Below, piece by piece: positions 1-47,334 of a stretch of DNA of 47,334 nt (its first letter is position 1; each line of letters starts with the position of its first letter). The notes below the pieces were generated by a model. It saw only the letters and a program-made list of their open reading frames with translations, did no database searches and was not told the DNA's origin. A program made the translations under genes and the position numbers. The DNA comes from a virus: positions 1 to 47,334 of IMG/VR virus record IMGVR_UViG_3300020171_000045; one strand, written 5' to 3'.

Positions 1-143
1 CTTTGAAGCTACACCAGCTAACGTCCTAGCAGTCACCTTCGCATTGACATCAAGAGTTGAATCACTCGCATCTCTCAAAAGGATTTGATGCCCAACTCTA
101 AATTCAGAAGCCGCCAGTTCAGCCATCTTAATATAGATGGTTG
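1..143. repeat. Terminal direct repeat (circular overlap), left copy
   Basis: Bases 1-143 match 47192-47334 with one difference (G at 17, T at 47208). The overlap lies inside the major capsid gene and keeps its reading frame, so the window is a circular or circularly permuted genome read slightly more than once around. The mismatch changes one capsid residue (Ala here, Asp in the right copy) and is probably a population variant. Confidence 0.95.
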
Positions 144-336
144 TCCCAACAACTGCACCAGCCGGAGGGGCAGGGTACGTTGTGGCATAAAGAGTTGCCA
201 TATTAGCATTAGTATAGATGTTAGTAACTGCACCTGCCTGCTCAGGCAGTTTCTTTGTCCACCAGTAGAATTGGGGGTCAGTTACTTTCTCATTTTTCAT
301 TTTTGACAGAATAGCTGTCAGCGGAACCATCCCATT
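1..336 (-). CDS. Major capsid protein, start of exon 2
   Basis: This is the first part of the second exon of the major capsid gene, read leftward and continuing across the circular junction at 47191. Translation from 336 gives NGMVPLTAILSKM and then WWTKKLPEQ, 70 residues before the internal Met that begins MAELAASEF. The stretch fits the N-terminal region of SU10-like capsid proteins, where a conserved YPNG is followed by a PLTALLS-like helix. Upstream in frame, beyond 336, a TGA stop is met in the intron. The spliced protein would be 33+70+344 = 447 residues, normal for the family. Exon boundaries are inferred from the intron core and from protein continuity. Confidence 0.85.
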
Positions 337-1145
337 CCTAATGTTAACTCATATTCTCATATGAGAGCGGACTATATCTTCGTCTCTAAAGACGTTTGGC
401 GTGTAGTCTCTGAGGGTTTATGATTTATGTACTCAAGCAATCTAGCTCTTTTTCGATTACAGTAAAAAGTGAATCCATTATCTACTGCTGACTTTATAGA
501 TATATTAAATAACCATCTATCAGCGTGATTAGGATTACTGTGTTTCTCAAGTGTCTTAGATGTAATATCTATTCCAATTACTCTACAGAGATCAGGAAAC
601 TGATTAACAAAACCTTTGCCTCCTGAAAATCTTAAAAACCAGTAACCATTCCTTAACATAGATATTGAACCATCTGTATCCATCAAACCTGAGAAAAAAT
701 CTAGCTTGGATTTTTTTGATGCTTGCCAAATATAAGATGGAATCTGCATTTTATAAGCAGTTGTTCTACACACAAAATCTGTTAACTGCTTATCATTCCA
801 TCTTAATCTATATAAAGGTCTCTCATTTTTAGTAGTTTCCTGATACATATGAGTTTTATTCATCTTCGAAATAGATGCTTCAAGCTCAACTTGTGCTTTA
901 AGCAGTATTTCTTGATCCATATTAACTAATCCCAACTCATATTTGTGTATCCAAGGTTGCCACATATAATGTCCATCTCCAAGCCAAACTCCGAAAAAGT
1001 ACGACAGTTGCTCAAACCACTTCATATCTTCCCTGCTGATTGTCTCCATGTATTCTCCATTTTCACACTTTGGTAGTTGAATCTTTAGAAGAGTTTCCAG
1101 CATATAGCCAAATTCTCACTGTAATAACAGTGACCCTAATGGTTA
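337..1145 (-). other. Group I self-splicing intron in the major capsid gene
   Basis: On the minus strand the canonical group I core is present: a Q-type element GCTGGAAACTC (1101-1091), AATCAGCAGGGAAG (about 1041-1028), R element CTCAGAGACTACACGCC (about 414-398), and S element AAGATATAGTCC (380-369). GACTA in R pairs with TAGTC in S (P7), and CGTCT/AGACG (394-381) forms P8. A perfect 7-bp hairpin at 1133-1116 matches P2. The 5' intron bases CCATT pair with exon-2 AATGG (P10), and the adjacent GGG pairs with exon-1 CCT, leaving a U.G pair at the splice site (P1). The intron ends in G. These pairings set the ends used here; exact ends are inferred. An endonuclease gene fills the large peripheral loop. 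Confidence 0.92.
372..1049 (-). CDS. LAGLIDADG homing endonuclease encoded in the group I intron
   Basis: This is a double-motif LAGLIDADG protein. With the longer ATG at 1103, motif 1 YFFGVWLGDGH lies at residues 35-45 and motif 2 DFFSGLMDTDG at 135-145, each with the metal-binding Asp. Such enzymes cut intron-less alleles and promote intron homing; some also assist splicing as maturases. I prefer the ATG at 1049 (225 residues) because GGAG lies 6 nt upstream, whereas the ATG at 1103 falls inside the intron core with no ribosome site. The C-terminus is read through the R and P8 elements, and the stop codon is the TAG inside the S element, so intron and reading frame are interlocked. The protein would cut at the capsid exon junction (inference). 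Confidence 0.93.
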   Translation of the reverse strand: METISREDMKWFEQLSYFFGVWLGDGHYMWQPWIHKYELGLVNMDQEILLKAQVELEASISKMNKTHMYQETTKNERPLYRLRWNDKQLTDFVCRTTAYKMQIPSYIWQASKKSKLDFFSGLMDTDGSISMLRNGYWFLRFSGGKGFVNQFPDLCRVIGIDITSKTLEKHSNPNHADRWLFNISIKSAVDNGFTFYCNRKRARLLEYINHKPSETTRQTSLETKI

Positions 1146-1244
1146 AGGATAGAGGAACAGGATTAGCTCACGCCATGATTTTGGCCTCTGGTCAGTTGCC
1201 CAGTCGCCAGTTCCACGCATTCCTAAAAAAGCATTGTCAGGCAT
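1146..1244 (-). CDS. Major capsid protein, exon 1 (33 codons)
   Basis: A short open frame begins at ATG 1244, preceded by AGGAG, and reads MPDNAFLGMRGTGDW... to LILFLYP before an in-frame TAA that belongs to the intron. The sequence RPKSWRELILFLYP is typical of the N-terminus of SU10-like capsid proteins, where it continues NGxxPLTALLS. That continuation is found at 336 after removal of the intron. This gene would be missed or called a fragment by automatic annotation. It is the sixth structural gene after portal, a small protein, scaffold and a glycine-rich protein, a usual position for the capsid gene. Confidence 0.85.
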
Positions 1245-12028: not shown

Positions 12029-12514
12029 TTAAATAGAATTAGATTCTGCCAGTTCCCCTTCAACTACCTGGCCAGACTCCTTAGATCGTTTCTTCATTTC
12101 TTCAATTTCCTCAGCTGTAAAGTGAGCATGCATAAATCTGCCCTCAATAACTTTAGGGGGAGCATATCCAGCTCTATCGAGTGCATCCATCGCTATTGCA
12201 ATTTTATGTTTCTCGTGTGTATTTGCATCTCTCATGATTGCCTGAAGAGTTTCAAAAGCTTCAGGGGCAAATCTCTTTATTTCTACAGATAGATCAAGCG
12301 CCTCAGAATCCCTTGCACCTCTCATCACCTCTAACTGCCGCTTTGCAAGCTCAGAATTGGCAGTGTAAGACACCATTACTGGAGTGACACCGAGCGTCCT
12401 TGCGATCTCAGTTTTATCCCACCCTAATAATAGGAGACGCAAGATTTCGTGATGGATGTCCCACAACTTCTGAATTTGATACTTGCGGCCATTGCCATTA
12501 AAGCGAGTATCCAT
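12029..12514 (-). CDS. terS: Terminase small subunit (HTH DNA-binding)
   Basis: 161 residues. A helix-turn-helix at about residues 20-55 (ILRLLLLGWDKTEIARTLGV then TPVMVSYTANSELA) is followed by long helices (APEAFETLQAIMRDANTHEK) and a charged tail. This matches small terminases, which bind the packaging site and regulate TerL. The start codon overlaps the stop of the preceding HNH gene (TAATG), implying coupled translation. Packaging-site sequence would be expected nearby but is not identifiable by eye. Confidence 0.78.
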   Translation of the reverse strand: MDTRFNGNGRKYQIQKLWDIHHEILRLLLLGWDKTEIARTLGVTPVMVSYTANSELAKRQLEVMRGARDSEALDLSVEIKRFAPEAFETLQAIMRDANTHEKHKIAIAMDALDRAGYAPPKVIEGRFMHAHFTAEEIEEMKKRSKESGQVVEGELAESNSI

Positions 12515-12903
12515 TATCTTACCACAAATCCCTTCTTCACCAACTCAATATGTTCGAGACTATATTCATAAATCTTTCTGATATGATCTAAAAAGCCAGA
12601 ATATGACAATTCCCGCTTCATCATATTGCAAATAGAACAACATGGAGCAGCATTACCCCTCACATATCCCATCTCATTATCTACTCTATCTATTCCATTA
12701 TGTACAAACTCTACATCATCTATATTCTTAGAAAATGAATCAGTTACCATAGTTGGTAAATTTCCACAGTAATAACATGGCAGTATTACCACTCTACAAT
12801 ATTCTTCAGGTGTCAATAAGAATGGAATGCCTCTTCGTACTGCTCCCTGCTTACACTGATTAAAAGCTACCTTCCTTGCTTGCTCGTCACCCTTTATTAC
12901 CAT
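12514..12903 (-). CDS. HNH endonuclease at the head of the late operon
   Basis: 129 residues. Zinc-type HNH core: CYYCGN near residue 45, then GIDRVDNEMGYVRGNAAPCC with CNMMK, giving two CxxC pairs and the His/Asn of the beta-beta-alpha metal fold. Such proteins nick DNA; beside terminase genes they often help packaging, or are free-standing homing enzymes. The start ATG 12903 has no good ribosome site and lies about 10 nt after a TATGAT sequence, so the message could be nearly leaderless. Confidence 0.85.
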   Translation of the reverse strand: MVIKGDEQARKVAFNQCKQGAVRRGIPFLLTPEEYCRVVILPCYYCGNLPTMVTDSFSKNIDDVEFVHNGIDRVDNEMGYVRGNAAPCCSICNMMKRELSYSGFLDHIRKIYEYSLEHIELVKKGFVVR

Positions 12904-25452: not shown

Positions 25453-25707
25453 ATGAACTACAGCTCAATTAGGCCAGACGTCATCAAAAGCATAATAAGT
25501 TATGTAAAGGATCGAATTCCTCCTGGAGACTTCCTTCAGGCTGTTCTTGAAAACAACCTAATGGAGTCTTTTAATAGAGCAGATGAAGATAATATAAGGA
25601 GTATGTTCGAAATTGTGCAATTCGTCTACAATGAAACCCCCGCGCGCTGCTGGGGGAGTCCAGAGAAGGTTAAGAGATGGTTAGGAGAGAGGAAAGAGCA
25701 TGAATAG
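25453..25707 (+). CDS. Small helical early protein
   Basis: 84 residues, MNYSSIRPDVIKSIISYVKD then RIPPGDFLQAVLENNLMESF and NRADEDNIRSMFEIVQFVYN. The pattern RIPPGDFLQAVLxNNLxEAFxRADxDN is common in small phage proteins of unknown function, apparently a helical bundle. Ribosome site from palindrome copy 12. It ends overlapping the HNH gene by 8 nt. Confidence 0.78.
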   Translation: MNYSSIRPDVIKSIISYVKDRIPPGDFLQAVLENNLMESFNRADEDNIRSMFEIVQFVYNETPARCWGSPEKVKRWLGERKEHE

Positions 25708-26167
25708 ATACCCAGGAGTACGATTTTGGAGTAAAGTTCTTAGAAAAGGTGAAGATGACTGTTGGCTCTGGGTAGGAAGCAGTGGTGGTAAAGGCTATGG
25801 CAACTTTACAATAGGTGATAGACAAACGAGTCCACACAGGTATGCTTACGAATTTGCTTTCGGAAAGTTTGATGATTCATTTATAGTTTTGCATAACTGT
25901 GATACTACACTATGCTGCAATCCAAAACATCTTAAGTTAGGAACACATGCTGAAAATACGGAAGATATGAACGAAAAGAAAAGAGGACGTAACAGTAGAA
26001 AAACTGAGTGTCTCAAAGGTCATGTATACAATGAGAGTAACACTTATTATCATAAAAATGGATCAAGAGACTGCTTGATATGCAGAAGAGAACGATCAAG
26101 AGACTATATGAGGCTTGAACGACTTATAAGGGAAAAACCTAAAATAGTTTATGGAGGTAGTTTATGA
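25700..26167 (+). CDS. HNH homing-type endonuclease with extra zinc knuckle
   Basis: 155 residues. HNH_3-like core as in I-HmuI-type enzymes: RFWSKV, DDCWLWVGSSGGKGYGNF, SPHRYAYEFAFG, VLHNCDTTLCCNPKHLKLGT and HAENTEDM. The C-terminal part adds C-x-KGH and CLICRR, a likely zinc-binding DNA-contact module. Such nucleases move between phage genomes as free-standing elements. It overlaps both neighbours by 4-8 nt, so it has been adapted to the operon. Confidence 0.9.
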   Translation: MNRYPGVRFWSKVLRKGEDDCWLWVGSSGGKGYGNFTIGDRQTSPHRYAYEFAFGKFDDSFIVLHNCDTTLCCNPKHLKLGTHAENTEDMNEKKRGRNSRKTECLKGHVYNESNTYYHKNGSRDCLICRRERSRDYMRLERLIREKPKIVYGGSL

Positions 26168-26766: not shown

Positions 26767-28131
26767 GTGGTAACAGATATAAGACTTGATATGATCCCTC
26801 TTCAGTTAATTGATGAAGGCAAACGAGCGAGAGAGGTATATGGCAACCTGCAGGAGTTGATAGAGTCTTTTAGATCTGAGGGTGTTATACAACCTATTGC
26901 AGTCAGAGAGTCTACATTAAGTATACCAACTAGATATTTATTGCTCGCAGGTGGCAGGCGCTATAGAGCAATGAAGCAGATGGGAATGGAGCTAGTACCA
27001 TGTCGTGTTTATCCTGAGAGTATAACAGAACTTGAAGAGAGGAGTATTGAGTTAGCTGAGAATGTCAATCGCCTTGACCTATCATGGCTCGAGAAGATTA
27101 GACTGTGTGAGCAGATTCATAATCTACAGGTAGCTATCCACGGTGAAAAGACATCTACATTGCCAGACGCAGAAGGCTGGAGCAAACGTGATACTGCCAA
27201 AATGCTTGAGAAGAGTCCTGCTTCAATCGTGCAAGACATCATGCTAGCAGAAGCAGTGGAGAGGATTCCTGAACTCAAAGAGTGTAAGACAAAGGATGAA
27301 GCCAAGAAGTTGCTGTCAATGATGCAGGAAACTATGATCAAGGCTGAGTTGGCACAGAGGATTGAAATGAATAGAGGAAGTATTCCGCAAGAACTTCTTC
27401 GATTGTGCGATAGTTTTATAATCAGCGACTTTCATAAAGGTATCAGATCTGTTCCCGACAGTTCTATAGACATTGTAGAAATAGATCCTCCATACGCCAT
27501 TGATCTTCCTGATCTAAAGAGGTTAGATGGGTTGCGTGAACAGAAGATGCAGGATTACAATGAGGTCTCATCTGAGGAATATCCCACTTTCATTCTAGAC
27601 ACATTAAAACAATGCTATAGAGTTCTGACTGAGAGAGGTTGGTTAGTAATGTGGTTTGGGCCTGAGCCTTGGTTTGACTTCATCTATCAGATGCTATGCC
27701 AAACTGGATTTAAAGTGAAAAGAATTCCAGGTATCTGGGTAAAGTCAACTGAGAGGAAGGTTGGTCAGACAATGCAGCCCAGTCTACATTTTGGGAATTC
27801 TTATGAAATGTTCTTCTACGCTCGTAAACAGCATACTGAATTGTATGAGCAAGGAAGGTCTAATGTCTTTGATTTCAAAACTGTTTCGCATCAGAGAAAG
27901 GTTCATCCTACAGAGAGGCCTATCGAAATGCTTGAAGATATCCTATCAACGCTGGTACCTCCTGGAAGTAGAGTACTTGTGCCATTCTTAGGAAGTGGTA
28001 ACACTTTGTTAGCAGCTTCTAATCTAGGCATGCAAGCTTTCGGTTATGAGCTAAGTCAGGAGTATAAAGATTCCTTCATATTGAGAGTGCATGAAGGAAA
28101 GTTCGGGAGGTACAAAAGCTATGGTGAGTAA
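26767..28131 (+). CDS. ParB-like domain fused to DNA methyltransferase
   Basis: 454 residues from GTG 26767 (AGGAGGT upstream). Residues about 1-110 are a ParB/Srx-like N-terminal domain: IPLQLIDEG-type start, NLQELIESFRSEGVIQPIAV, and LLAGGRRYRAMKQMG. A helical linker leads to a beta-class N6-adenine/N4-cytosine methyltransferase: motif IV EIDPPYAIDLPD (Asp240-Tyr243), and the S-adenosylmethionine motif FLGSGNT from residue 407, with KTVSHQRKVHPTERP between. It may protect phage DNA from restriction or mark regulatory sites. It overlaps the polymerase gene by 11 nt. The fusion is known in phages; the target sequence is unknown. Confidence 0.93.
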   Translation: MVTDIRLDMIPLQLIDEGKRAREVYGNLQELIESFRSEGVIQPIAVRESTLSIPTRYLLLAGGRRYRAMKQMGMELVPCRVYPESITELEERSIELAENVNRLDLSWLEKIRLCEQIHNLQVAIHGEKTSTLPDAEGWSKRDTAKMLEKSPASIVQDIMLAEAVERIPELKECKTKDEAKKLLSMMQETMIKAELAQRIEMNRGSIPQELLRLCDSFIISDFHKGIRSVPDSSIDIVEIDPPYAIDLPDLKRLDGLREQKMQDYNEVSSEEYPTFILDTLKQCYRVLTERGWLVMWFGPEPWFDFIYQMLCQTGFKVKRIPGIWVKSTERKVGQTMQPSLHFGNSYEMFFYARKQHTELYEQGRSNVFDFKTVSHQRKVHPTERPIEMLEDILSTLVPPGSRVLVPFLGSGNTLLAASNLGMQAFGYELSQEYKDSFILRVHEGKFGRYKSYGE

Positions 28132-30667
28132 TCCTTTCCAAAATAGCTCTATCTATGTAGGGAAGAAAGTTGGTGGTGAAGGTTCACCTGATGCTAAGAT
28201 TGCCTGGATAGGTGAAGCGCCCGGAGTGATCGAAGCTAAGGAAGGTAGACCCTTCAGTCCAAATGCACCTGCTGGAAAATTAATGACTGAGTTGATGCAC
28301 TCAGTCGGTATATCTCGAGGTGATGTCTACCTCACCAATATCATAAAGGAGCGCCCTGGCAAAAGTAAAATTGATCCTCGCCAGGATGATCTGACACCTT
28401 GGTTTAGAGTCAGTTCACAGGGAAGAGTCACAGTGACACCCGCCTACGTTACCTATCGAGATATACTGATTGAAGAACTGAAAGGGATCAAGGCAAATGT
28501 TTTCGTCCCAGCTGGCAACATTTCATTGTATGCCTTAACAGGTTTGACTGCTATCACAAAGCGAAGAGGTTCAATCCTTGAAGGTAATTTCTGGCCTGGG
28601 ATGAAGGTGGTACCTACAATTCATCCAGCTGCTGCTCTTCCTCACAAGAATCCTATCTTCAAATACTTTATCAAGGCTGACTTGAGAAGGATAGTAGAAG
28701 AGTCTAAGTCTCCAATCATCAGTTTGCCAGGAAGAAGTCTAAAGATATTGCCTTCATATGGAGAGACCTGTGGATACCTTGAGAGCTGCAAACTGTTGGA
28801 AAGGATAGCTGTTGACATCGAAGTTCTCAATGAAGAAATAAGTCATGTCGCTATCGCTAAGGAAGCAGATGACGCTATCTCTATTTCGTTTACTGCACAA
28901 GGCGAAAGCTTCTTAACACCACCTCAAGAGGCCCATATCTGGCAGCTAATTGCTGAGTTGATGGAGAATCCAAATATTGTAAAGGAGAATCAGAATATCA
29001 CTTTTGATGCTGCCTTCATGTTTAGGAAGCTGGGGATAGTTGTCAGGAATATGGAAGACACTATGGTTCAGATGGGTATCCTATTCCCAGATTTTCCGAA
29101 GAGCTTAGGTTTCATAACTTCACTTTATACTCGTGAACCTTACTATAAAGATGAGCGGAAGAAGCAGTCTAAGCTGTATGACGAAACAAAGTTCTCCATT
29201 TATAATGCTAAGGACCCTGCTATGGTGAGAGAGATCTTTCCTAAGTTGAAGGTTGAATTAGAGAAGCAGGGAAATGAGGAGACTTATCAGTATCAGAAAA
29301 GGATGATAGCTCCATGCGTATATATGCAGGAGAGAGGGATGAAGGTTGATGTTGGAGGACTGGCTGAAGCAAATAAGGAAGCTGATGAAAGACTAGTTAA
29401 GTTGGAAGCAGATATTCAGAAGGCAGTCGGACACTCCTTCAATCCTCGTAGTTCAGCGCAGGTCATGGATTACTTTTATAAGGAACTTAGTATAGAACCA
29501 TATACTAAAAAGGGTAGGCCAACTGCTGATCAAAATGCTATCAAGCGTTTAGCGAGACGTGGAGTTCATGTTGCTATACTGATGAGAGACTATAGGAAGC
29601 TACACAAGTTTAAGACATCATATTTAGAAATGGTGATAGGGAAGGACGGACGTCTCCATTCTGCTATGAACCCTATTGGAACTACGACTGGGCGACTAGC
29701 TGCATCAAAAGATATTTTAGGTGAGGGTGGCAATGTGCAAACGCTCCCTAAAATGTTTTATCCCTTTGTAATAGCTGATGAAGGCTGCGTCATGTACCAC
29801 CTCGATATTGAGCAAGGAGAGAATAGGATAGTTGCAAACATTGCACCTGAGCCTCTAATGAAAGCTGCCTTTGATAAGGATAGGGACGTGCATAGACAGA
29901 CTGCTAGTCTAATTTTTAATATCCCCTTCGATCAAGTCTCAAATGAAGAAGGCAGTTCGCCTATGGGAAATGGAGAACATTCTCAGAGATTTTGGGGCAA
30001 GAAGTCAAATCATGCTTTCAACTATGGTGAAGGATATGTAAGATTCTCACTAGACTGTGACCTTCCAGAAACACAGGGTAAGTTCATTTACTTGAGATAT
30101 CACCAACTCTATCCAGGAATCAGGCAGTACTGGGAGTGGGTCACTGAGTCCTGTCGGAAGAATAGTAGGATATTAACTAATTTGTTTGGGAGGAAGCGTT
30201 TGTTCCTTGGAAACTGGAATGATGAACTCTTTAAAGATTTGTACGCCTTCATTCCACAGAGCACGATTGCTGATAAGATCAACAGGCAAGGTGTGATTCC
30301 AATCTACGAAGACCAAAAAAGTTTTGGGGCTATTGATCTATTAAATCAGATTCATGATGCCATCCTGTTTCAGATCCCTCTATCATATAGCTGGGTAGAA
30401 CACGCTGAGGCACTTCTAAAACTGATCAACCTACTCACAACTCCTTTGAAGTGGCATGGAACTGAGTTCGTTCTTCCAGTTGAGCTGAAAATGGGTACTA
30501 ACTTAGCAGATATGATGGAGGTCAAATGTGGAGATAAAGCTGAAACGCTGGCAAGAGATCTTGAAAATATTTATAGAGAACGCATCCTTACTCAGTCAAA
30601 AGTTTCACTCGAACATAGTTTACAGATTGAGGAATCAGATACTGGGGAATTGCTGGGAGATCAATGA
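28121..30667 (+). CDS. DNA polymerase A with N-terminal uracil-DNA-glycosylase-like domain
   Basis: 848 residues from ATG 28121 (GGGAGG upstream). Residues 1-200 are a family-4-type UDG: GEAPGVIEAKEGRPF then a TNIIKERP strand and VPTIHPAAAL. There is no cysteine in this part, so the usual 4Fe-4S cluster is absent. A 3'-5' exonuclease follows (VDIEV, ENQNITFDAAFM, YNAKDPAMV). The polymerase has motif A with Asp562 and Glu567 (LDIEQGENR), motif B KKSNHAFNYG, and motif C QIHDAIL with His745-Asp746, where the usual Glu is Ala. SPO1-like phages have a similar fusion. Main replicase. Confidence 0.95.
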   Translation: MVSNPFQNSSIYVGKKVGGEGSPDAKIAWIGEAPGVIEAKEGRPFSPNAPAGKLMTELMHSVGISRGDVYLTNIIKERPGKSKIDPRQDDLTPWFRVSSQGRVTVTPAYVTYRDILIEELKGIKANVFVPAGNISLYALTGLTAITKRRGSILEGNFWPGMKVVPTIHPAAALPHKNPIFKYFIKADLRRIVEESKSPIISLPGRSLKILPSYGETCGYLESCKLLERIAVDIEVLNEEISHVAIAKEADDAISISFTAQGESFLTPPQEAHIWQLIAELMENPNIVKENQNITFDAAFMFRKLGIVVRNMEDTMVQMGILFPDFPKSLGFITSLYTREPYYKDERKKQSKLYDETKFSIYNAKDPAMVREIFPKLKVELEKQGNEETYQYQKRMIAPCVYMQERGMKVDVGGLAEANKEADERLVKLEADIQKAVGHSFNPRSSAQVMDYFYKELSIEPYTKKGRPTADQNAIKRLARRGVHVAILMRDYRKLHKFKTSYLEMVIGKDGRLHSAMNPIGTTTGRLAASKDILGEGGNVQTLPKMFYPFVIADEGCVMYHLDIEQGENRIVANIAPEPLMKAAFDKDRDVHRQTASLIFNIPFDQVSNEEGSSPMGNGEHSQRFWGKKSNHAFNYGEGYVRFSLDCDLPETQGKFIYLRYHQLYPGIRQYWEWVTESCRKNSRILTNLFGRKRLFLGNWNDELFKDLYAFIPQSTIADKINRQGVIPIYEDQKSFGAIDLLNQIHDAILFQIPLSYSWVEHAEALLKLINLLTTPLKWHGTEFVLPVELKMGTNLADMMEVKCGDKAETLARDLENIYRERILTQSKVSLEHSLQIEESDTGELLGDQ

Positions 30668-31019
30668 CGATTATAGTTATATAATGATAAAGGGTGTAAG
30701 GATAGGAGCACATGTTCTTTCCTGGCTACTTTACAAAGATCATAGCCTTCTCTTAAATAAAGAAGTATGTCACTTCTGTAATAATCCAAGCTGTGCTAAT
30801 CCTCAGCATCTTTATGTAGCTTCTCATAAAGAAAACTTACAATATGCTCCTCGAAGTCATGGGCATATTAACTCAAAACTTAACACAGTCATTGCTTCGC
30901 GAATTAGAGAGGAATATAAACAGGGAAAGACTACAGAACGAAACTTAGCTAAAAAGTATGGAGTCCACAGATCCTCAATTCATAGACTTTTAAAGGAGGA
31001 GACGTGGCAAGAAAGTTAG
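30528..31019 (+). CDS. HNH endonuclease with HTH, overlapping the polymerase gene
   Basis: 163 residues from GTG 30528, with GGAGG 6 nt upstream. HNH core: NCWEINDDYSYIMI, GAHVLSWLLYKDH, VCHFCNNPSCANPQHLYVAS and HKENLQ. The C-terminus KTTERNLAKKYGVHRSSIHR is a helix-turn-helix for DNA binding. The first 140 nt overlap the polymerase gene in another frame, which is exceptional here. Either the nuclease invaded the polymerase 3' end, or translation starts at ATG 30684 and the extension is spurious. The core itself is certain. Confidence 0.85.
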   Translation: MEIKLKRWQEILKIFIENASLLSQKFHSNIVYRLRNQILGNCWEINDDYSYIMIKGVRIGAHVLSWLLYKDHSLLLNKEVCHFCNNPSCANPQHLYVASHKENLQYAPRSHGHINSKLNTVIASRIREEYKQGKTTERNLAKKYGVHRSSIHRLLKEETWQES

Positions 31020-33766: not shown

Positions 33767-33994
33767 GTGGAAAAACTAGAGCTCAAATTTACTGTACGAT
33801 GTACTTGCGAAGAGGAACTTGAGGCCAAGTTCATATATGCAAATACGGTTATTGAAGTAGAACCTTGTAAGAGATGTCTTGACAGAGCTTATAAAGATGG
33901 CTTAAAGGGAGAAGTTGTAAAGCTATCGAACTACATACACTCTCCTGAGCAAGTACAAAGAGCCATAGATTGTATTATGAAGAGGAAGGATTAA
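33767..33994 (+). CDS. Last early gene, small Cys-containing protein
   Basis: 75 residues from GTG 33767 (AAGGAGGGT upstream). MEKLELKFTVRCTCEEELEA, CTC and EPCKRCLDR give a CxC/CxxC pair, possibly metal-binding, then a helix EGEVVKLSNYI-like. Its stop codon overlaps that of the convergent 2015-residue virion gene. Confidence 0.72.
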   Translation: MEKLELKFTVRCTCEEELEAKFIYANTVIEVEPCKRCLDRAYKDGLKGEVVKLSNYIHSPEQVQRAIDCIMKRKD

Positions 33995-36900
33995 TACCTC
34001 CTGAACTCTCTCACAGGCAACTGCCTCTGCCATAAATCCATACGCCTTGCCATTTTGCTGGCAAGCAGTTGCCTTGTTGCTGGATCTAAATGACTCTTCT
34101 CAATAGCAGCAATAATAGTGTCAGGACTTATAGCGTGAGTTGCAACTTCCTGCACAAGTTCTTCAGTAACTATATCAACGTCAATCATCCTGTGTCGCTT
34201 GACAATCTGCTCCACAATCTTCTTAGCTTGTGCCTTTTCTTTATCTTCCAAAGCCTTTGATATACGCATTTCAAGTTCTTGCACAGACGCTCCTAGAACT
34301 TTAAACCCACCTGCCATCTTCACAAGATCAGTCCAGTCTTCAACTTTGTACTTATTATTACCACCCTCATCAAGAATCCACCCGTCTTCATTCATTAACC
34401 CCTGCCAGAACTCATGCCACGTTCTGCCAACAGGCACTACACCTTTAGTGAACTTCTTAACGTCTTCCCATAAGTAGCTTTCTTCATTGATGATAGGCAT
34501 AACTATATCTCTCCCAAACCTCACGATGTCAGAGATTAAGATGCCAGCCCAATCAGCAGCCTTCTCAGGAAATTGAAATGCTGCAGGGGCAGAAGCGTCA
34601 ATCCCGAAGAATCCGAATACTCCTCTTGATAGACGAGGATAGTTATTGTTGAGCCAGGTATCAAGATCATCAAGCCAGCCTCCTCCACTACACAGTATTG
34701 GAATTGGAAGACTTTTAAGAGTAATCATAAGTCCTCTAGGCCCACCAAGAACTGCCTGCATTGTCAGATACTTAGCCCACTGATTCGCACCCTTCAAACC
34801 TCGAATGAATTCTATTTCCTTAATCATGTAAGCTCTGAACTGTCCAATCGTCTTTCCGCCTGGGCCACGAAGAATTTCGGGAAGTGCAGCAACTGTATAA
34901 TTGAACTCCTGTAGGTCAACAGAGCGCTTAGCAAATTCTACAGCCTCAGTTTCATCATATCCATACTCACCTCTACCATATAAATAGGATGTCATAAAAC
35001 TACGCTCTCGGACTGGAATCTCTGGAGCTTGGAACAGTTTCAATGGAGAGTACCAGTTCAGTCTGTTGACTAGATCTCCTCCCATTCCTTCAATTACTGA
35101 TACACCAAGTGAAGGAGCGTTCTTCTTAATAAACTCTTTACCGCCTTCAGTCTTTAACACCCTCTCCGCTTCGAGCATATACTTAGCACTAGTCTTAACC
35201 CAGATATGTCCCATGCCTGAGAGTCCATTGATAATTGCAGCTACAGGTCTATAGCCTAACTTCAGATTGGTTAAAACTGTCCTTGTAGCAGCCAATCCTC
35301 TCGTATATGCGAAAGACTGTTCGAAGCCAAGTCTATCAAGGAGGTCATCAACGATAGCATCGCCCTGTGTATACTCCCCCCTTATTGCCTCAAGCTGCTT
35401 TTCCAAAACTCTCTTCACTGCAGGCCTATCACTAAACTCATGAAGGTGATCTCTCAACTTTAGGATGTAAGGGTCAATAGCATGTTTCTTCTCAATACTA
35501 TGAACGTATAGTGGAAGAATGTCAAAGACATCCTTTTCACCAGGAAGCACTTCTTCACGTTCCTCTAAGAATTTAGACCAGATCTTCTGAGGTTTGATAG
35601 CAATACTTTTGCCTGGGAGCTCAGCCTTTAACTTCTCTGCTAAGTCCTTCCCAATATCGTCAGCGTACTGATTCACTAACTTAGCAATTTTGCCCTTCAT
35701 CATCCTGTAATGTTTCTGTGAGACCAGCGTTTGGAAATCTTTATCAACACGGTACGTAGTGTCAACCATGATACTTTCAACAGATGGATTCTCCTTCAGG
35801 TAGTGCAGTGCTTCATCAACTGCTTTCTTTTTAGTCTGAGCAAAAGAGATAATTCTTCCTTCAGAGTCAATAAGTGCAATCGAACCTCTCATGGCATGTG
35901 TGATATAGTCTTTAATACCGAAGTTTTCAATCTCTTTCCACTCCTTGAACAGGTCTAGCATATCTGCATACGTAGTTGTGCCCATTCTACCTTCAGCACT
36001 AGTTCTGTTATAGTCACGAGCATAACGATTCCATTTCTTAGTAGACTCAATAACGCTTTCTCCACTTATGAGAACGTCTGCGAATATGCGAGCTTCAGTT
36101 GAATTTGCGCCTAATATCAATGACTCTCTAAGAAATTTTTTATGCTTCGTTTTATAAAAGTCAAGGAACTTTCTAGTGTCAACTACAGCCTCTTTAATTT
36201 TAGGATCAAGTTTGTCGAGGTTAATAACTTCCCCACTCTCAATCTCCTTCAAAATAGAGGTGACCTTCTCACGCTCTCTTTCATTTAGATTTTCAGTAAT
36301 CCTATCTATTTCCATAAAGCCGAGACTGCGATTATAAGTCCAGATACCGAGTGAGTCAATCGCTTCAGCAGCAAAGGCAAGAGCATCTGGATGATCTCTC
36401 AACGCGAACAATGGAGAGTTAACACGAGCAGAAAGCTGAGAAATATCAATAGGCCTTTCCTTAACATTAACATTCTGCTGAACTGGAGTTCCAAGACCTG
36501 CATGAATCCCTGATCCTTTTAATGGATAGCTTTGAAGTGCATGCTCAACTTCAATAGACTTAATACGGGGAGTTGAAGCATTTACACTCCGTTCCTTAGC
36601 TTCATATGCTAACTGCTTATAGGTATAGTCTGCATTAAGTTCAATCACTTCTCGTCCAGTCTTCAAAGCGATATCTAACAATGTAGATTCGCGCTCACTC
36701 ATTGGCTTATTAAATAAAGTTAAAGATAGGAGTTCTTTGAATCTAATCCATAATGTACTTACTGTGCCGCCCCTCTCCACCTTCTCAGCAGGAATTGAAG
36801 CCAAATATCCTTGTAGTTCTGGGTCTACAAAAATACTAGCTATAAATTCCTCATTATTAGTCAATCCGTAATACAGACTGAGATAATCTCGACTTCTTGA

Positions 36901-39900
36901 TAAACCAAGTTGCTCATAAGGAATAGCATAGAATGAGTTAGGAGTTAATGAAGACATTATCCGCTTATCGTTCTCCCCAAGATTCTCTATAGCCTTGAGT
37001 CTTAAATTTGTAATGCCATCAGTCAGTACCTTAGAATTTTCCATAATTTCTACAGTAAGAGCATGTGTCAACTCATGTAGAATATCTTCGCCGACTGAGG
37101 TTTGATGAAGTTCGGCATAGCCACTATAGTTAGATATGAATCCGATAATAGGTCCTCCATACTTCCCAGCTACTGCAGTTCTAAGTCCTCCATAAAAAGC
37201 AGCAGCACCTCCACTCTCATCTATAATCACTTTAACATTCTCTAGTACACTTCTAATACGAGGATTATCAAAATATTCTGCTAAGGCTACCTCAGTGGCA
37301 GTAAAAACCTCTTTGTTGGCAAGCATAAAATTTAGTAAAAACGAAGCTTTCCTAGGAGGCCCTGTCTCAGGAATAATTGAGTCAATTAAATCTTGAGCCA
37401 ACTCATGCCTAACCTTACTATTATACTTTTCTAACCCTGCAGGTGGCGCTGCTTGTACATCAGTAGCTTTCAAGGCATCCGAGATATCTACCATAAATGC
37501 TCTCAAACTATCAAGTGAATTGACCAATCTATCATACTCACTATGTGACAGGGTCTTCTTAAAGTGATCAAGATTACTGGATAGTTTGCTAAGTGCATCG
37601 AATGGCACTCTACCATCAGTGTGATATGCTACATTTGTCTGTGTTGATAGCGCATGCAGCATTGTATCTATATCTGAGTTCCAATCCAACTTCGCCTGTT
37701 TCAGTAGATCAAATTGTGTAAGTGCTTCCTCTTTTGGCTGAAACCAAACTGTGTTATTTACAACCTTCTTCGAAAATACTTTTTTATCAGGAACTTGCAC
37801 AACGACCGGAACTCTTTCTATAGCAGGTGGAGGCTCAACAAACTGCTTTTCAACATTATCAACTATTTCCTCTTTTTCAAGCTGTATCCACTTACGCTGC
37901 TCAGCATCAAAATATGAATCATATTCAGCAGGATCTCTCTGCATTAAATCTTCGTTCTTCATTCTATCAATGTCTGCGAAATCTCTATCCAGTGTTACCT
38001 GCTCATCCCTGATTTGTCTATCAAAAATATCAATAGAGGTCATGGCTCCCATTTCATCTTTAACATCCATAATCAGATTGTAAAACTTAGCTTCAGGAAC
38101 CACTCCTTCTAAATCAGCCTTCACATCAGGATCATTAATAAGGTCGTCTATTGACCACCCTTTTTTAGACATAGCACTAATATGCTCTACAAAACCAGGG
38201 CGTAGCTTCCTCATGATAGCGACAACTTCAGCTGGTGTTGATACATCCCTAACTTCTTCACCAACTACTTCTGGCTTCTCTTCAGCAATCTGCGGAAGTC
38301 GACCAGCTTCACGAAGGATGCGCACCCTACGTTCCCGAGTTGATTCAACTTTTGCAACCGGCTGCCAAACTTCAATAGCTCTTTTCGCTTCAGATTGATT
38401 TGTCAAGACATGAATATCTGGATTAAATATTGCAGGTTTTCCACTTTGGTCAGTTACAACTACATCTGGAATCTCAGGATTTTCAGAAGGCTCTAAACGG
38501 ATAAAGGTTGTTTCTTGCTTTGGCAACTCGAGTTCAGTAGGTTGACGTATAGCAGTTTCAATAGTGGGGCCACCTCTATATGTTAATGGTTCACCCTTTA
38601 ACTTAGCGAGCTTCTCTTCACGAGGAGTTCTGTATTCACCAGTAGATGTAATCCACCCACTATCCTTCACCTCTTCACCTGATGGGACCTCTATATCAGA
38701 ATGTAGTTGCCCTCTCTTGCCAGTATATATCTTCCCAGCTTGAGTTCTAATAGCTGGACTTAAAGGTCCTACTCCCATTCCTTCCTCTACTAAGAGTCCT
38801 TCTTCACGAAGAGAAGGTTCAGGAGCCAGAATCTTCTCAATAATGTCTTTAGATTTTACAGCAGCTGCCCCCTTCTTTTCAGCCTTTGTAGCTGCACGCT
38901 CTTCCTTCGTAGCCTTAATAGCCTTAGCCCTACCTTCAAGTTCAGCAATAGCATTATCAGCAGCGTCTGTCTTTGTAGCTTTCTTAATAATAGAATCAGC
39001 AACTGTATCTGCAGTGTCCTTATCAACACCTTTCTCTACAAGGGCTGCAGATGCCTTAGCTTTAAAATCCTGCAGAAATGCTTCATTACTTCTGCGCCGA
39101 GTTGAAGCAACTGCAGATGCACCTGCTCCCATCATTATTCCAGTCTGGAAAAAAGTAGTACCAAGTGTATTTTCTGCCTGTTCCCAGTAGGGAGCCTGAG
39201 GCAAGCTAATTTCCTCAGCAGCCTTATATTCCACTGCAGTAGTGAACTGTTCACCAAGATTTTCAGTGAGCTGAGCCCACCCCATCTTTTTTGCAAACCT
39301 ACCAAAGGCAGCCATTACTCCAGCTTTAATAGGTTCACGAAGTACTTTACTCCCAGTTAAGCCAAGAATTCTTGCAGAGATAAAGTTAGGGATAACTTCG
39401 CCAGCTATCTCAGAAACTGCAGATGCAGCTTTCCATGCAGCATTTTCCTTCTGTATAATAGCTAACTCTTCTGGAGTAGCTCCTCTGGCTCTAAACTCTT
39501 TCTCGATATCCTTAGTTAAATCATACCACTGTGCACCGCCAAAGAAACCACCTTTAGACAAGATACTACCAATAGTTGCAGCTGCCACTCCAGCTGCTCC
39601 TGTCGCTGCTATACCAGGTCCAAGTGCCAATGCAGCTACGCCACCAATAAGGCCAGTTGAAATAGATTGACCAGAAGATGTGAAAGCACTGCGGACCCAA
39701 TTACTCACTTTTCCAGGAGCGTCTTCTTTAGGCTCCCACCACTTTGCACTTTCATCAAGTTTACTAATGACGGGCTCCATAATAGACTCCATTCCTGGAA
39801 TCGCATACTTTAATAGGTCAACAGTTTTAGCAACTGCACCAACTCCACCAGCTAATCCACCCATTCCAGACTTCGCCCATTGAGCAGGCTCTGTTAAGTA

Positions 39901-40038
39901 ATCAAGTATTCTAGGTGACTTAATAGGACCAGCATATGTAAACTCCTCTGGTGATTCCTGCACGCTTTGCTCAATATTTTGAACAAAGGTAGGTGTTTCT
40001 GACATCTTCTCTACAAGCTTAAAAGTTTCGTCAGCCAT
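33991..40038 (-). CDS. Giant internal virion/ejection protein with HELTH motif
   Basis: 2015 residues from ATG 40038 (AGGAG upstream). The N-terminal region has glycine/alanine-rich membrane-like segments (GLIGGVAALALGPGIAATGA). Long Lys/Glu-rich and disordered segments follow. The middle holds LHELTHALTVEIM with His988-Glu989-x-x-His992, a zincin-type metalloprotease motif. The C-terminal third is helical. Size and final position in the late operon match podovirus internal proteins that enter the cell with DNA (T7 gp16 class). The HELTH domain could digest host or virion proteins. Palindrome copy 14 lies in codons about 17-26. Confidence 0.85.
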   Translation of the reverse strand: MADETFKLVEKMSETPTFVQNIEQSVQESPEEFTYAGPIKSPRILDYLTEPAQWAKSGMGGLAGGVGAVAKTVDLLKYAIPGMESIMEPVISKLDESAKWWEPKEDAPGKVSNWVRSAFTSSGQSISTGLIGGVAALALGPGIAATGAAGVAAATIGSILSKGGFFGGAQWYDLTKDIEKEFRARGATPEELAIIQKENAAWKAASAVSEIAGEVIPNFISARILGLTGSKVLREPIKAGVMAAFGRFAKKMGWAQLTENLGEQFTTAVEYKAAEEISLPQAPYWEQAENTLGTTFFQTGIMMGAGASAVASTRRRSNEAFLQDFKAKASAALVEKGVDKDTADTVADSIIKKATKTDAADNAIAELEGRAKAIKATKEERAATKAEKKGAAAVKSKDIIEKILAPEPSLREEGLLVEEGMGVGPLSPAIRTQAGKIYTGKRGQLHSDIEVPSGEEVKDSGWITSTGEYRTPREEKLAKLKGEPLTYRGGPTIETAIRQPTELELPKQETTFIRLEPSENPEIPDVVVTDQSGKPAIFNPDIHVLTNQSEAKRAIEVWQPVAKVESTRERRVRILREAGRLPQIAEEKPEVVGEEVRDVSTPAEVVAIMRKLRPGFVEHISAMSKKGWSIDDLINDPDVKADLEGVVPEAKFYNLIMDVKDEMGAMTSIDIFDRQIRDEQVTLDRDFADIDRMKNEDLMQRDPAEYDSYFDAEQRKWIQLEKEEIVDNVEKQFVEPPPAIERVPVVVQVPDKKVFSKKVVNNTVWFQPKEEALTQFDLLKQAKLDWNSDIDTMLHALSTQTNVAYHTDGRVPFDALSKLSSNLDHFKKTLSHSEYDRLVNSLDSLRAFMVDISDALKATDVQAAPPAGLEKYNSKVRHELAQDLIDSIIPETGPPRKASFLLNFMLANKEVFTATEVALAEYFDNPRIRSVLENVKVIIDESGGAAAFYGGLRTAVAGKYGGPIIGFISNYSGYAELHQTSVGEDILHELTHALTVEIMENSKVLTDGITNLRLKAIENLGENDKRIMSSLTPNSFYAIPYEQLGLSRSRDYLSLYYGLTNNEEFIASIFVDPELQGYLASIPAEKVERGGTVSTLWIRFKELLSLTLFNKPMSERESTLLDIALKTGREVIELNADYTYKQLAYEAKERSVNASTPRIKSIEVEHALQSYPLKGSGIHAGLGTPVQQNVNVKERPIDISQLSARVNSPLFALRDHPDALAFAAEAIDSLGIWTYNRSLGFMEIDRITENLNEREREKVTSILKEIESGEVINLDKLDPKIKEAVVDTRKFLDFYKTKHKKFLRESLILGANSTEARIFADVLISGESVIESTKKWNRYARDYNRTSAEGRMGTTTYADMLDLFKEWKEIENFGIKDYITHAMRGSIALIDSEGRIISFAQTKKKAVDEALHYLKENPSVESIMVDTTYRVDKDFQTLVSQKHYRMMKGKIAKLVNQYADDIGKDLAEKLKAELPGKSIAIKPQKIWSKFLEEREEVLPGEKDVFDILPLYVHSIEKKHAIDPYILKLRDHLHEFSDRPAVKRVLEKQLEAIRGEYTQGDAIVDDLLDRLGFEQSFAYTRGLAATRTVLTNLKLGYRPVAAIINGLSGMGHIWVKTSAKYMLEAERVLKTEGGKEFIKKNAPSLGVSVIEGMGGDLVNRLNWYSPLKLFQAPEIPVRERSFMTSYLYGRGEYGYDETEAVEFAKRSVDLQEFNYTVAALPEILRGPGGKTIGQFRAYMIKEIEFIRGLKGANQWAKYLTMQAVLGGPRGLMITLKSLPIPILCSGGGWLDDLDTWLNNNYPRLSRGVFGFFGIDASAPAAFQFPEKAADWAGILISDIVRFGRDIVMPIINEESYLWEDVKKFTKGVVPVGRTWHEFWQGLMNEDGWILDEGGNNKYKVEDWTDLVKMAGGFKVLGASVQELEMRISKALEDKEKAQAKKIVEQIVKRHRMIDVDIVTEELVQEVATHAISPDTIIAAIEKSHLDPATRQLLASKMARRMDLWQRQLPVREFRRY
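39963..39990. repeat. 28-bp palindromic element, copy 14
   Basis: Inside the N-terminal codons of the 2015-residue gene (TFVQNIEQSV); the only copy wholly within a large coding region, oriented opposite to the gene-proximal rule. Confidence 0.85.
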
Positions 40039-46282: not shown

Positions 46283-47334
46283 TTAGACAATGTTGTCTTT
46301 CCCAACTCCATCCAGAACCATGAAGGTATCAGGATGCCACAATTCAAGACCGCACTCAGTCAAGAATTCCTCATTCGTCGCGTCTTTGCGACCACTATTA
46401 GTTCCAGGACCAGCCTGCTTTGCCTCACCTTCGCCATAGAATGTAGTATCAGTGATGAACCGATAGATCAAATTCTTAGGTTCGATGAGAATCATAGAAT
46501 AGCGAGTCGTAGGTTCCTGACTCATCAAAGGGTGGGTCTTCAGATAGATACTACCAAAAGGTGTAATCCACTCAGTGATCTTGATCCCATAAACAGTAGC
46601 CTTAGGTTCCAGTTTCATCTGAGCACCACTTCTCGCTAACTGATTCAAGCCTAAAAGAGCACCAGAACCGCAAAGGGCCAATTTCTCAGCACTACCAAAT
46701 CTGAAAACCAGTTCCAGATAAGCATCTAGCCATGCTTCCCCTCCACCAGCCACATCCCAAGCTTTTGTGGTGTAGGCAGTATTTAGTCGATAGTCGTTGA
46801 AGTTAGCAGCTACATTCGCTTTAACGAAGTTGATAATCCCCTGAGTTGTTCTCTCAGGTTTCAACTCCACTAGTCCAGCAGCTGCTTCAGTCGGAATCCC
46901 GAAGATGAACGCTTTTTCCATCTCAATACCGTGCAGCTCGAGAGCTTCACGCTTCATCTCTTTATAGGCGTCGCCAGTACGAAGTCTCGTTTCGCGAGCT
47001 GTACGAGTGATGCTTAGGGGCGTTCTGAAGATCTGTGTGTAGTTATAGTACTTTACAGGGTTGTAGCCGAGGGCGTTAGGCATAGCCGCACCTTCCTCGT
47101 TGATATTACCAATGACTATAACCCTATCACAGTGAGCCAGGTTGTGAGTCTGGGTGCTGTTATCATCAGCTTCCAACAGTTTAACTGTTAACTTTGAAGC
47201 TACACCATCTAACGTCCTAGCAGTCACCTTCGCATTGACATCAAGAGTTGAATCACTCGCATCTCTCAAAAGGATTTGATGCCCAACTCTAAATTCAGAA
47301 GCCGCCAGTTCAGCCATCTTAATATAGATGGTTG
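46283..47334 (-). CDS. Major capsid protein, main part of exon 2 (SU10-like)
   Basis: The reading frame enters from position 336/1 and continues here to the stop at 46283. Visible family features include YNYTQIFRTPLSITRTARET, RLRTGDAYKEMKREALELHG, MEKAFIFGIP and, near the C-terminus, RKDATNEEFLTECGLELWHP. This is the HK97-fold major capsid protein of SU10-like podoviruses. The open frame spans the circular junction: bases 47192-47334 duplicate 1-143, differing only at 47208 (Asp versus Ala codon). Total protein after splicing: 447 residues. No ribosome site precedes the internal Met at 47317, which confirms that the true start is exon 1. Confidence 0.93.
   Translation of the reverse strand, partial: TIYIKMAELAASEFRVGHQILLRDASDSTLDVNAKVTARTLDGVASKLTVKLLEADDNSTQTHNLAHCDRVIVIGNINEEGAAMPNALGYNPVKYYNYTQIFRTPLSITRTARETRLRTGDAYKEMKREALELHGIEMEKAFIFGIPTEAAAGLVELKPERTTQGIINFVKANVAANFNDYRLNTAYTTKAWDVAGGGEAWLDAYLELVFRFGSAEKLALCGSGALLGLNQLARSGAQMKLEPKATVYGIKITEWITPFGSIYLKTHPLMSQEPTTRYSMILIEPKNLIYRFITDTTFYGEGEAKQAGPGTNSGRKDATNEEFLTECGLELWHPDTFMVLDGVGKDNIV
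47192..47334. repeat. Terminal direct repeat (circular overlap), right copy
   Basis: Same 143 bases as 1-143 with one substitution (T at 47208 for G at 17). Removing either copy closes the genome at about 47,191 bp. Confidence 0.95.

Follow-up and report, generated by a model that had tools for sequence, protein, structure and literature searches.

A probably mobile group I intron carrying a LAGLIDADG homing endonuclease gene in the major capsid gene of a metagenomic phage

Why does the major capsid gene of this phage stop after 33 codons? The gene lies in IMG/VR record IMGVR_UViG_3300020171_000045, a virus contig of 47,334 bp, whose full length we call the window. It opens with an ATG at 1244, behind an AGGAG, and runs for 33 codons to CTC TAT CCT, where a TAA stop follows immediately. 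After 809 nt the capsid frame picks up again with AAT GGG ATG at 336. The two ends of the contig share an overlap of 143 bp with one mismatch, which indicates that the contig closes to a circle and that the capsid gene spans the closure. The mismatch itself changes the capsid protein from TLAGVASK to TLDGVASK, through either strain variation or an assembly error. Same-strand neighbours of the capsid gene include an SU10-type portal gene and a large terminase gene (phrog_38). Our analysis leads us to conclude, with high confidence, that the 809 nt are a mobile group I intron carrying a homing endonuclease gene (Table 1).

Table 1. Coordinates of the intron, its RNA elements, the endonuclease gene and the capsid exons in the window.
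Feature	Position	Strand	Details
Group I intron, 809 nt	337..1145	-	starts U after exon CCU, ends G; RF00028, junction, empty sites
Exon 1, major capsid gene	1146..1244	-	33 codons, ATG..CCT (MPDNAFLGMRGTGDWATDQRPKSWRELILFLYP); unbroken in relatives
Exon 2, first part	1..336	-	begins AATGGGATG...
Exon 2, remainder	46283..47191	-	beyond circular closure
LAGLIDADG homing endonuclease ORF	372..1103	-	243 aa from first ATG; inside P6 loop
P1	1134..1148	-	exon CCU (1148-1146) with GGG (1136-1134); intron UAA/UUA continues the helix
P10 guide CCAUU	1138..1142	-	pairs with exon 2 AAUGG (336-332)
P2 hairpin CACUG-UUAUUA-CAGUG	1117..1132	-	sequence
P3 5' strand UUUGGC	1107..1112	-	covaries with 395-400
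P4-P5 domain	1034..1102	-	Rfam partial match; common to relatives
P4	1102-1098 with 1038-1034	-	UGCUG with CAGCA, the latter in Q element AAUCAGCAG
P6 3' strand CCC	414..416	-	pairs with GGG 1033-1031
R element UCAGAGACUA	404..413	-	contains P7 5' strand GACUA (408-404)
P3 3' strand GCCAAA	395..400	-	covariation
P8 hairpin CGUCU-UUAG-AGACG	381..394	-	
S element AAGAUAUAGUCC	369..380	-	P7 3' strand UAGUC (374-370); UAG = endonuclease stop
P9 hairpin CUCAUAU-GAGA-AUAUGAG	348..365	-	GNRA loop
End overlap	1-143 = 47192-47334		one mismatch

The ends of the intron were set by three things: the final U of exon 1, the final G of the intron and the match of the joined protein to its relatives. This rule gives a junction of the form CCU|UAA...AGG|AAU, with the frame restored, and returns exactly the interval that an earlier, sequence-only reading had proposed. 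Joining codon 33 to codon 34 (...CTCTATCCT^AATGGGATGG...) reproduces the 447-residue capsid frame with YPNG at the junction, also foreseen in that reading. Profile search assigns the spliced product to phrog_1328 (major head protein, E=1e-31); searched alone, the exon 2 stub with which the window begins gives no match. Where homologues come from named phages, their annotation is major head or capsid protein, as for the major head protein of a Desulfofustis phage at 50% identity. P33 and G35, which flank the junction, are invariant in an alignment of 20 relatives. In 113 of 123 capsid loci the site is empty: the N-terminal match is single and uninterrupted, with no break and no missing N-terminus. 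The intronless site of the L002 type reads CTCTATCCTAACGGGATGG.

The RNA evidence points in the same direction. A covariance-model search, which the sequence-only reading had named as a check, matches Rfam Intron_gpI (RF00028) end to end at 348-516 (score 36.9 bits; E=3.9e-7 over 3 kb and 6e-6 over the whole window). A second, weak and partial match covers the P4-P6 half at 997-1102. At the gathering threshold there is no Rfam match, since 36.9 bits lie below the gathering score of 50, presumably because the ORF of about 0.6 kb splits the two halves of the model. This score counts against our main reading, and so does P1. It had been claimed that the core elements and both guide pairings are readable, and for P7, P8, P10 and the Q, R and S elements this stands. 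The canonical register of P1, with U-G at the splice site, however, has only three pairs with the exon, besides three within the intron. Five pairs form in another register (AUCCU/AGGGU), which puts U-A at the splice site. In the relatives, to which the same junction rule was applied independently, P1 mostly has 4-6 canonical pairs with U-G.

Covariation in P3 provides an independent test of the core. As in related introns, its 5' strand adjoins P4 and its 3' strand lies behind P7. A MAFFT alignment of the core set the 3' strand out of register, and P3 was tested by an alignment-free permutation over 16 introns (that of the window and 15 relatives). None of 2000 permutations reached the observed sum, and strands paired with their own partners scored 5.25 on average versus 2.18 with swapped partners. 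The sequences themselves illustrate this: UUUGGC/GCCAAA in the window, UUCGAC/GUCGAA in L125, UCCUGC/GCAGGA in L031 and CGGUGC/GCACCG in L033. P8 and P9 also vary among related introns yet stay paired. Group I introns of subgroup IA are marked by a P7.1/P7.2 insertion between the 3' strands of P3 and P7. The window intron lacks this insertion, which would place it outside subgroup IA.

Within the intron, the endonuclease ORF likelier starts at the ATG at 1049-1047 (225 aa), just ahead of the Q element and behind a ribosome-binding-like GGAG (1058-1055). That it overlaps R and P8 and ends in S had been noticed before and is borne out: the UAG stop falls within the 3' strand of P7. Both LAGLIDADG motifs are intact (FGVWLGDG and FSGLMDTDG), and their G-D-G and D..D-G residues are invariant across 16 relatives. 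A single-sequence search of the PDB found nothing and single-sequence Pfam matches stayed below the cut-off, but a three-sequence profile finds PI-PfuI (E=3.6e-10) and I-DmoI (E=3e-6). The AlphaFold2 model (pLDDT 86) has two LAGLIDADG repeats in an I-DmoI-like fold, in keeping with the alpha-beta-beta-alpha-beta-beta-alpha repeats and acidic motif residues that mark this enzyme family. Foldseek matches it to I-DmoI (E about 1e-7), PI-SceI and PI-PfuI, with E from 5e-9 to 4e-7 for the three; a bI3 maturase is also among the fold matches. Like the monomeric enzymes I-DmoI, PI-PfuI and PI-SceI, to which profile and fold matches link it, the protein has two repeats in one chain. These proteins differ in their hosts, which are archaeal 23S rRNA introns or inteins, and are only 13-17% identical in the fold alignments.

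The model has low confidence at residues 7-19 and 232-243, which are encoded in P4/P5 and in R/P8/P7, respectively. In these stretches, whose sequence the RNA requires, the protein tolerates unstructured termini. An endonuclease ORF that extends into the group I core is a recognised arrangement, for which restrained expression is expected so that translation does not block folding (review PMC3984707). The window shares this arrangement; here both ends overlap, the start with P5/Q and the end with R-P8-P7.

How would such an element work? We infer the following steps. The precursor of the capsid mRNA would fold the P3-P9 core and splice itself through two transesterifications started by guanosine, which would join codon 33 to codon 34 and restore the 447-aa protein. 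The two-motif endonuclease would be translated from the same transcript, its gene sitting in the P6 loop and overlapping the core at both ends. Its probable target is the conserved YP|NG codons in the intronless capsid alleles of relatives that infect the same cell; repair of the cut would then copy the intron into that allele. Late in infection a phage requires its capsid protein in hundreds of copies, and therefore an intron in this gene must splice very efficiently.

One could also argue that the intron splices but has lost its mobility, its LAGLIDADG protein being degenerate or a maturase only. LAGLIDADG proteins can also be maturases, and the bI3 maturase is among the fold matches; moreover, where the model has its low-confidence tails, the coding sequence is part of the RNA core. 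We nevertheless consider the loss of mobility unlikely, for the following reasons. First, both acidic motifs are intact and the core residues are invariant in the relatives. Second, the ORF is full length and preceded by its GGAG. Third, the patchy distribution of the intron, with intronless close relatives, fits mobility.

A second alternative is that there is no splicing at all. The endonuclease gene would then split the capsid gene, and the capsid would be made from the internal Met (330-328) or in two pieces. An AGGA does lie 5-6 nt upstream of that ATG, and unspliced split genes exist: nrdA/mobE of Aeromonas phage Aeh1 is one, as cited in PMC7344957. Exon 1, on the other hand, when compared with the nearest relative, L002 (84% identical), has six synonymous and no nonsynonymous codon differences, and its 33 residues are conserved in relatives; the first 60 codons of exon 2 have 16 synonymous and 13 replacement differences from L002. 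Because all changes in exon 1 are synonymous, it is translated and under purifying selection, which speaks against a start at the internal Met. A separate peptide of 33 aa is implausible, and the full covarying group I core ends exactly at the in-frame junction. An unspliced split gene is hence a very remote prospect. Even less credible is an in-frame intein, as suggested by the weaker endonuclease relatives that lie in one long open frame, since UAA is the first intron codon after exon 1, the endonuclease ORF stops inside the element and the reading frames exclude a continuous in-frame insertion.

If the element is a mobile group I intron, is its location new? The sequence-only reading had stressed that capsid genes are less usual sites for phage introns than replication or terminase genes and that LAGLIDADG enzymes are rarer in phages than HNH or GIY-YIG enzymes. 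This argument has to be tempered. Mycobacteriophage LittleE carries a probable group I intron of about 820 bp in its major capsid gene, with a LAGLIDADG gene inside, and its splicing was proven by RT-PCR and N-terminal sequencing (PMC3706429). As in the window, exon 1 ends in U and the intron in G. The LittleE endonuclease differs: its gene lies on the opposite strand and encodes 177 aa, related to I-CreI and with a tail like that of HNH proteins. A tblastn comparison of the window endonuclease with LittleE gave no match at E<=0.01. A capsid intron of lactococcal phage Tuc2009 is cited in the LittleE paper (PMC3706429), and in Jug phages group I introns number in the thousands, alongside some LAGLIDADG genes (PMC12363816). 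A capsid intron with a LAGLIDADG gene is thus already known, from one other phage, and what is new is the repeated capsid location of the relatives. We did not find this location described for the window endonuclease family in open-access papers, and it may be published elsewhere.

The relatives were sought by their endonuclease, not by the host gene, which yielded about 70 IMG/VR loci. A scan for close relatives with the window endonuclease returned nothing, and relatives were reached only by alignments. In INPHARED, no annotated isolate has a close homologue; there are weak matches only, several in intein-like hosts. All intron-borne IMG/VR relatives that we recognised (14 further loci at about six sites) sit in major capsid genes, which span three PHROG families. 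The sample is small, and the near-copies L138-L140 count once. None of the relatives found has its intron at the exact position of the window intron, a further point against our main reading.

The closest relative is L125 (IMGVR_UViG_3300020171_000007; L125:3780-4794). Its intron of 893 nt lies in the same capsid gene with the same architecture, 7 nt upstream of the window site within codon 31 (TTATACCT|TTACCC), and carries a two-motif endonuclease that is 44-48% identical to that of the window. L125 differs in having a canonical P1 of 5 bp (UACCU/GGGUA). Its exon 2 begins with UUACCC, which resembles its own P1 partner. A small displacement of the insertion point may connect the sites of the two introns.

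Eight further introns (L129, L130, L132, L133, L135, L136, L137 and L202) belong to this capsid family as well and share the group I core, the capsid host and an ORF that runs from beside the Q element to R/P8. They differ in being inserted at about codon 56 (DPQF|YWW), and their endonucleases are only 25-29% identical to that of the window. The ORF plan of the relatives resembles that of the window, mostly with ATGGAYAATCAGCA by the Q element and SET near the stop. L031 and L033 also have capsid introns at the codon-56 site, with shorter LAGLIDADG genes. In L033 (L033:4390-6030) a single capsid gene holds two group I introns, one at codon ~56 and one at an NYTQ motif, and both contain a short LAGLIDADG gene. 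The remaining introns lie in other capsid families: phrog_9953, which has two sites (L131 and L138-L140), and phrog_3437 (L134). L130 and L138 belong to different capsid families and nevertheless have identical exon ends and guides, GGAGUU/GACUCC (L130:3890-3910 and L138:590-610), where the codons specify EF[N/D]W. Through this short shared motif, an intron may have jumped from one capsid gene to a non-homologous one.

Not all relatives sit in capsid introns. Three close relatives, L126-L128, are free-standing endonucleases, L127 between terL and the portal gene and L128 upstream of a terL-like gene. L258 (L258:1-3587) is the 23S rRNA gene of a Nanoarchaeota MAG and is interrupted by an intron; the LAGLIDADG gene of this intron, at 33% identity, is closer to that of the window than those of the codon-56 capsid introns are. 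We therefore rejected an exclusively capsid-bound lineage as an absolute statement. Among the weaker matches from L141 onward, nearly all of those checked have the intein-like form of a single long open frame. In the tree, the endonucleases of the window and L125 group with the free-standing ones (86/95), and those of the codon-56 and other capsid introns form a separate, weakly supported group (74/97). From this grouping, capsid introns of the window type probably arose at least twice.

Taken together, the relatives suggest that such elements settled in phage capsid genes repeatedly. It is conceivable, and to us somewhat doubtful, that they form a lineage of LAGLIDADG introns specialised on capsid genes, which has reached six or more sites in three capsid families by way of short codon motifs, such as GGAGTT, that the sites have in common. 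The endonuclease might then serve as a weapon against the capsid gene of a competitor in the same cell, cutting it during co-infection. In phage PhiPA3, as reported in PMC11620839, an intron endonuclease contributes to viral competition, and the window element might bring its phage a similar benefit. With elements that keep settling in capsid genes, two questions become testable: what lets such introns persist in genes that are expressed late and strongly, and do their endonucleases harm competing phages? For annotators, it means that a capsid gene found split in a metagenomic phage of this clade is not necessarily broken and may be spliced.

Elsewhere in the window there are three HNH genes. 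One encodes an endonuclease with a helix-turn-helix tail (30528-31019, plus strand) and overlaps the 3' end of the DNA polymerase gene; the others lie at 12514-12903 (minus strand) and 25700-26167 (plus strand). A protein of 2015 aa (33991-40038, minus strand) is without PHROG or Pfam match and is probably an internal or ejected virion protein. Finally, at 26767-28131 (plus strand) a ParB N-terminal domain is fused to an N6/N4 DNA methylase.
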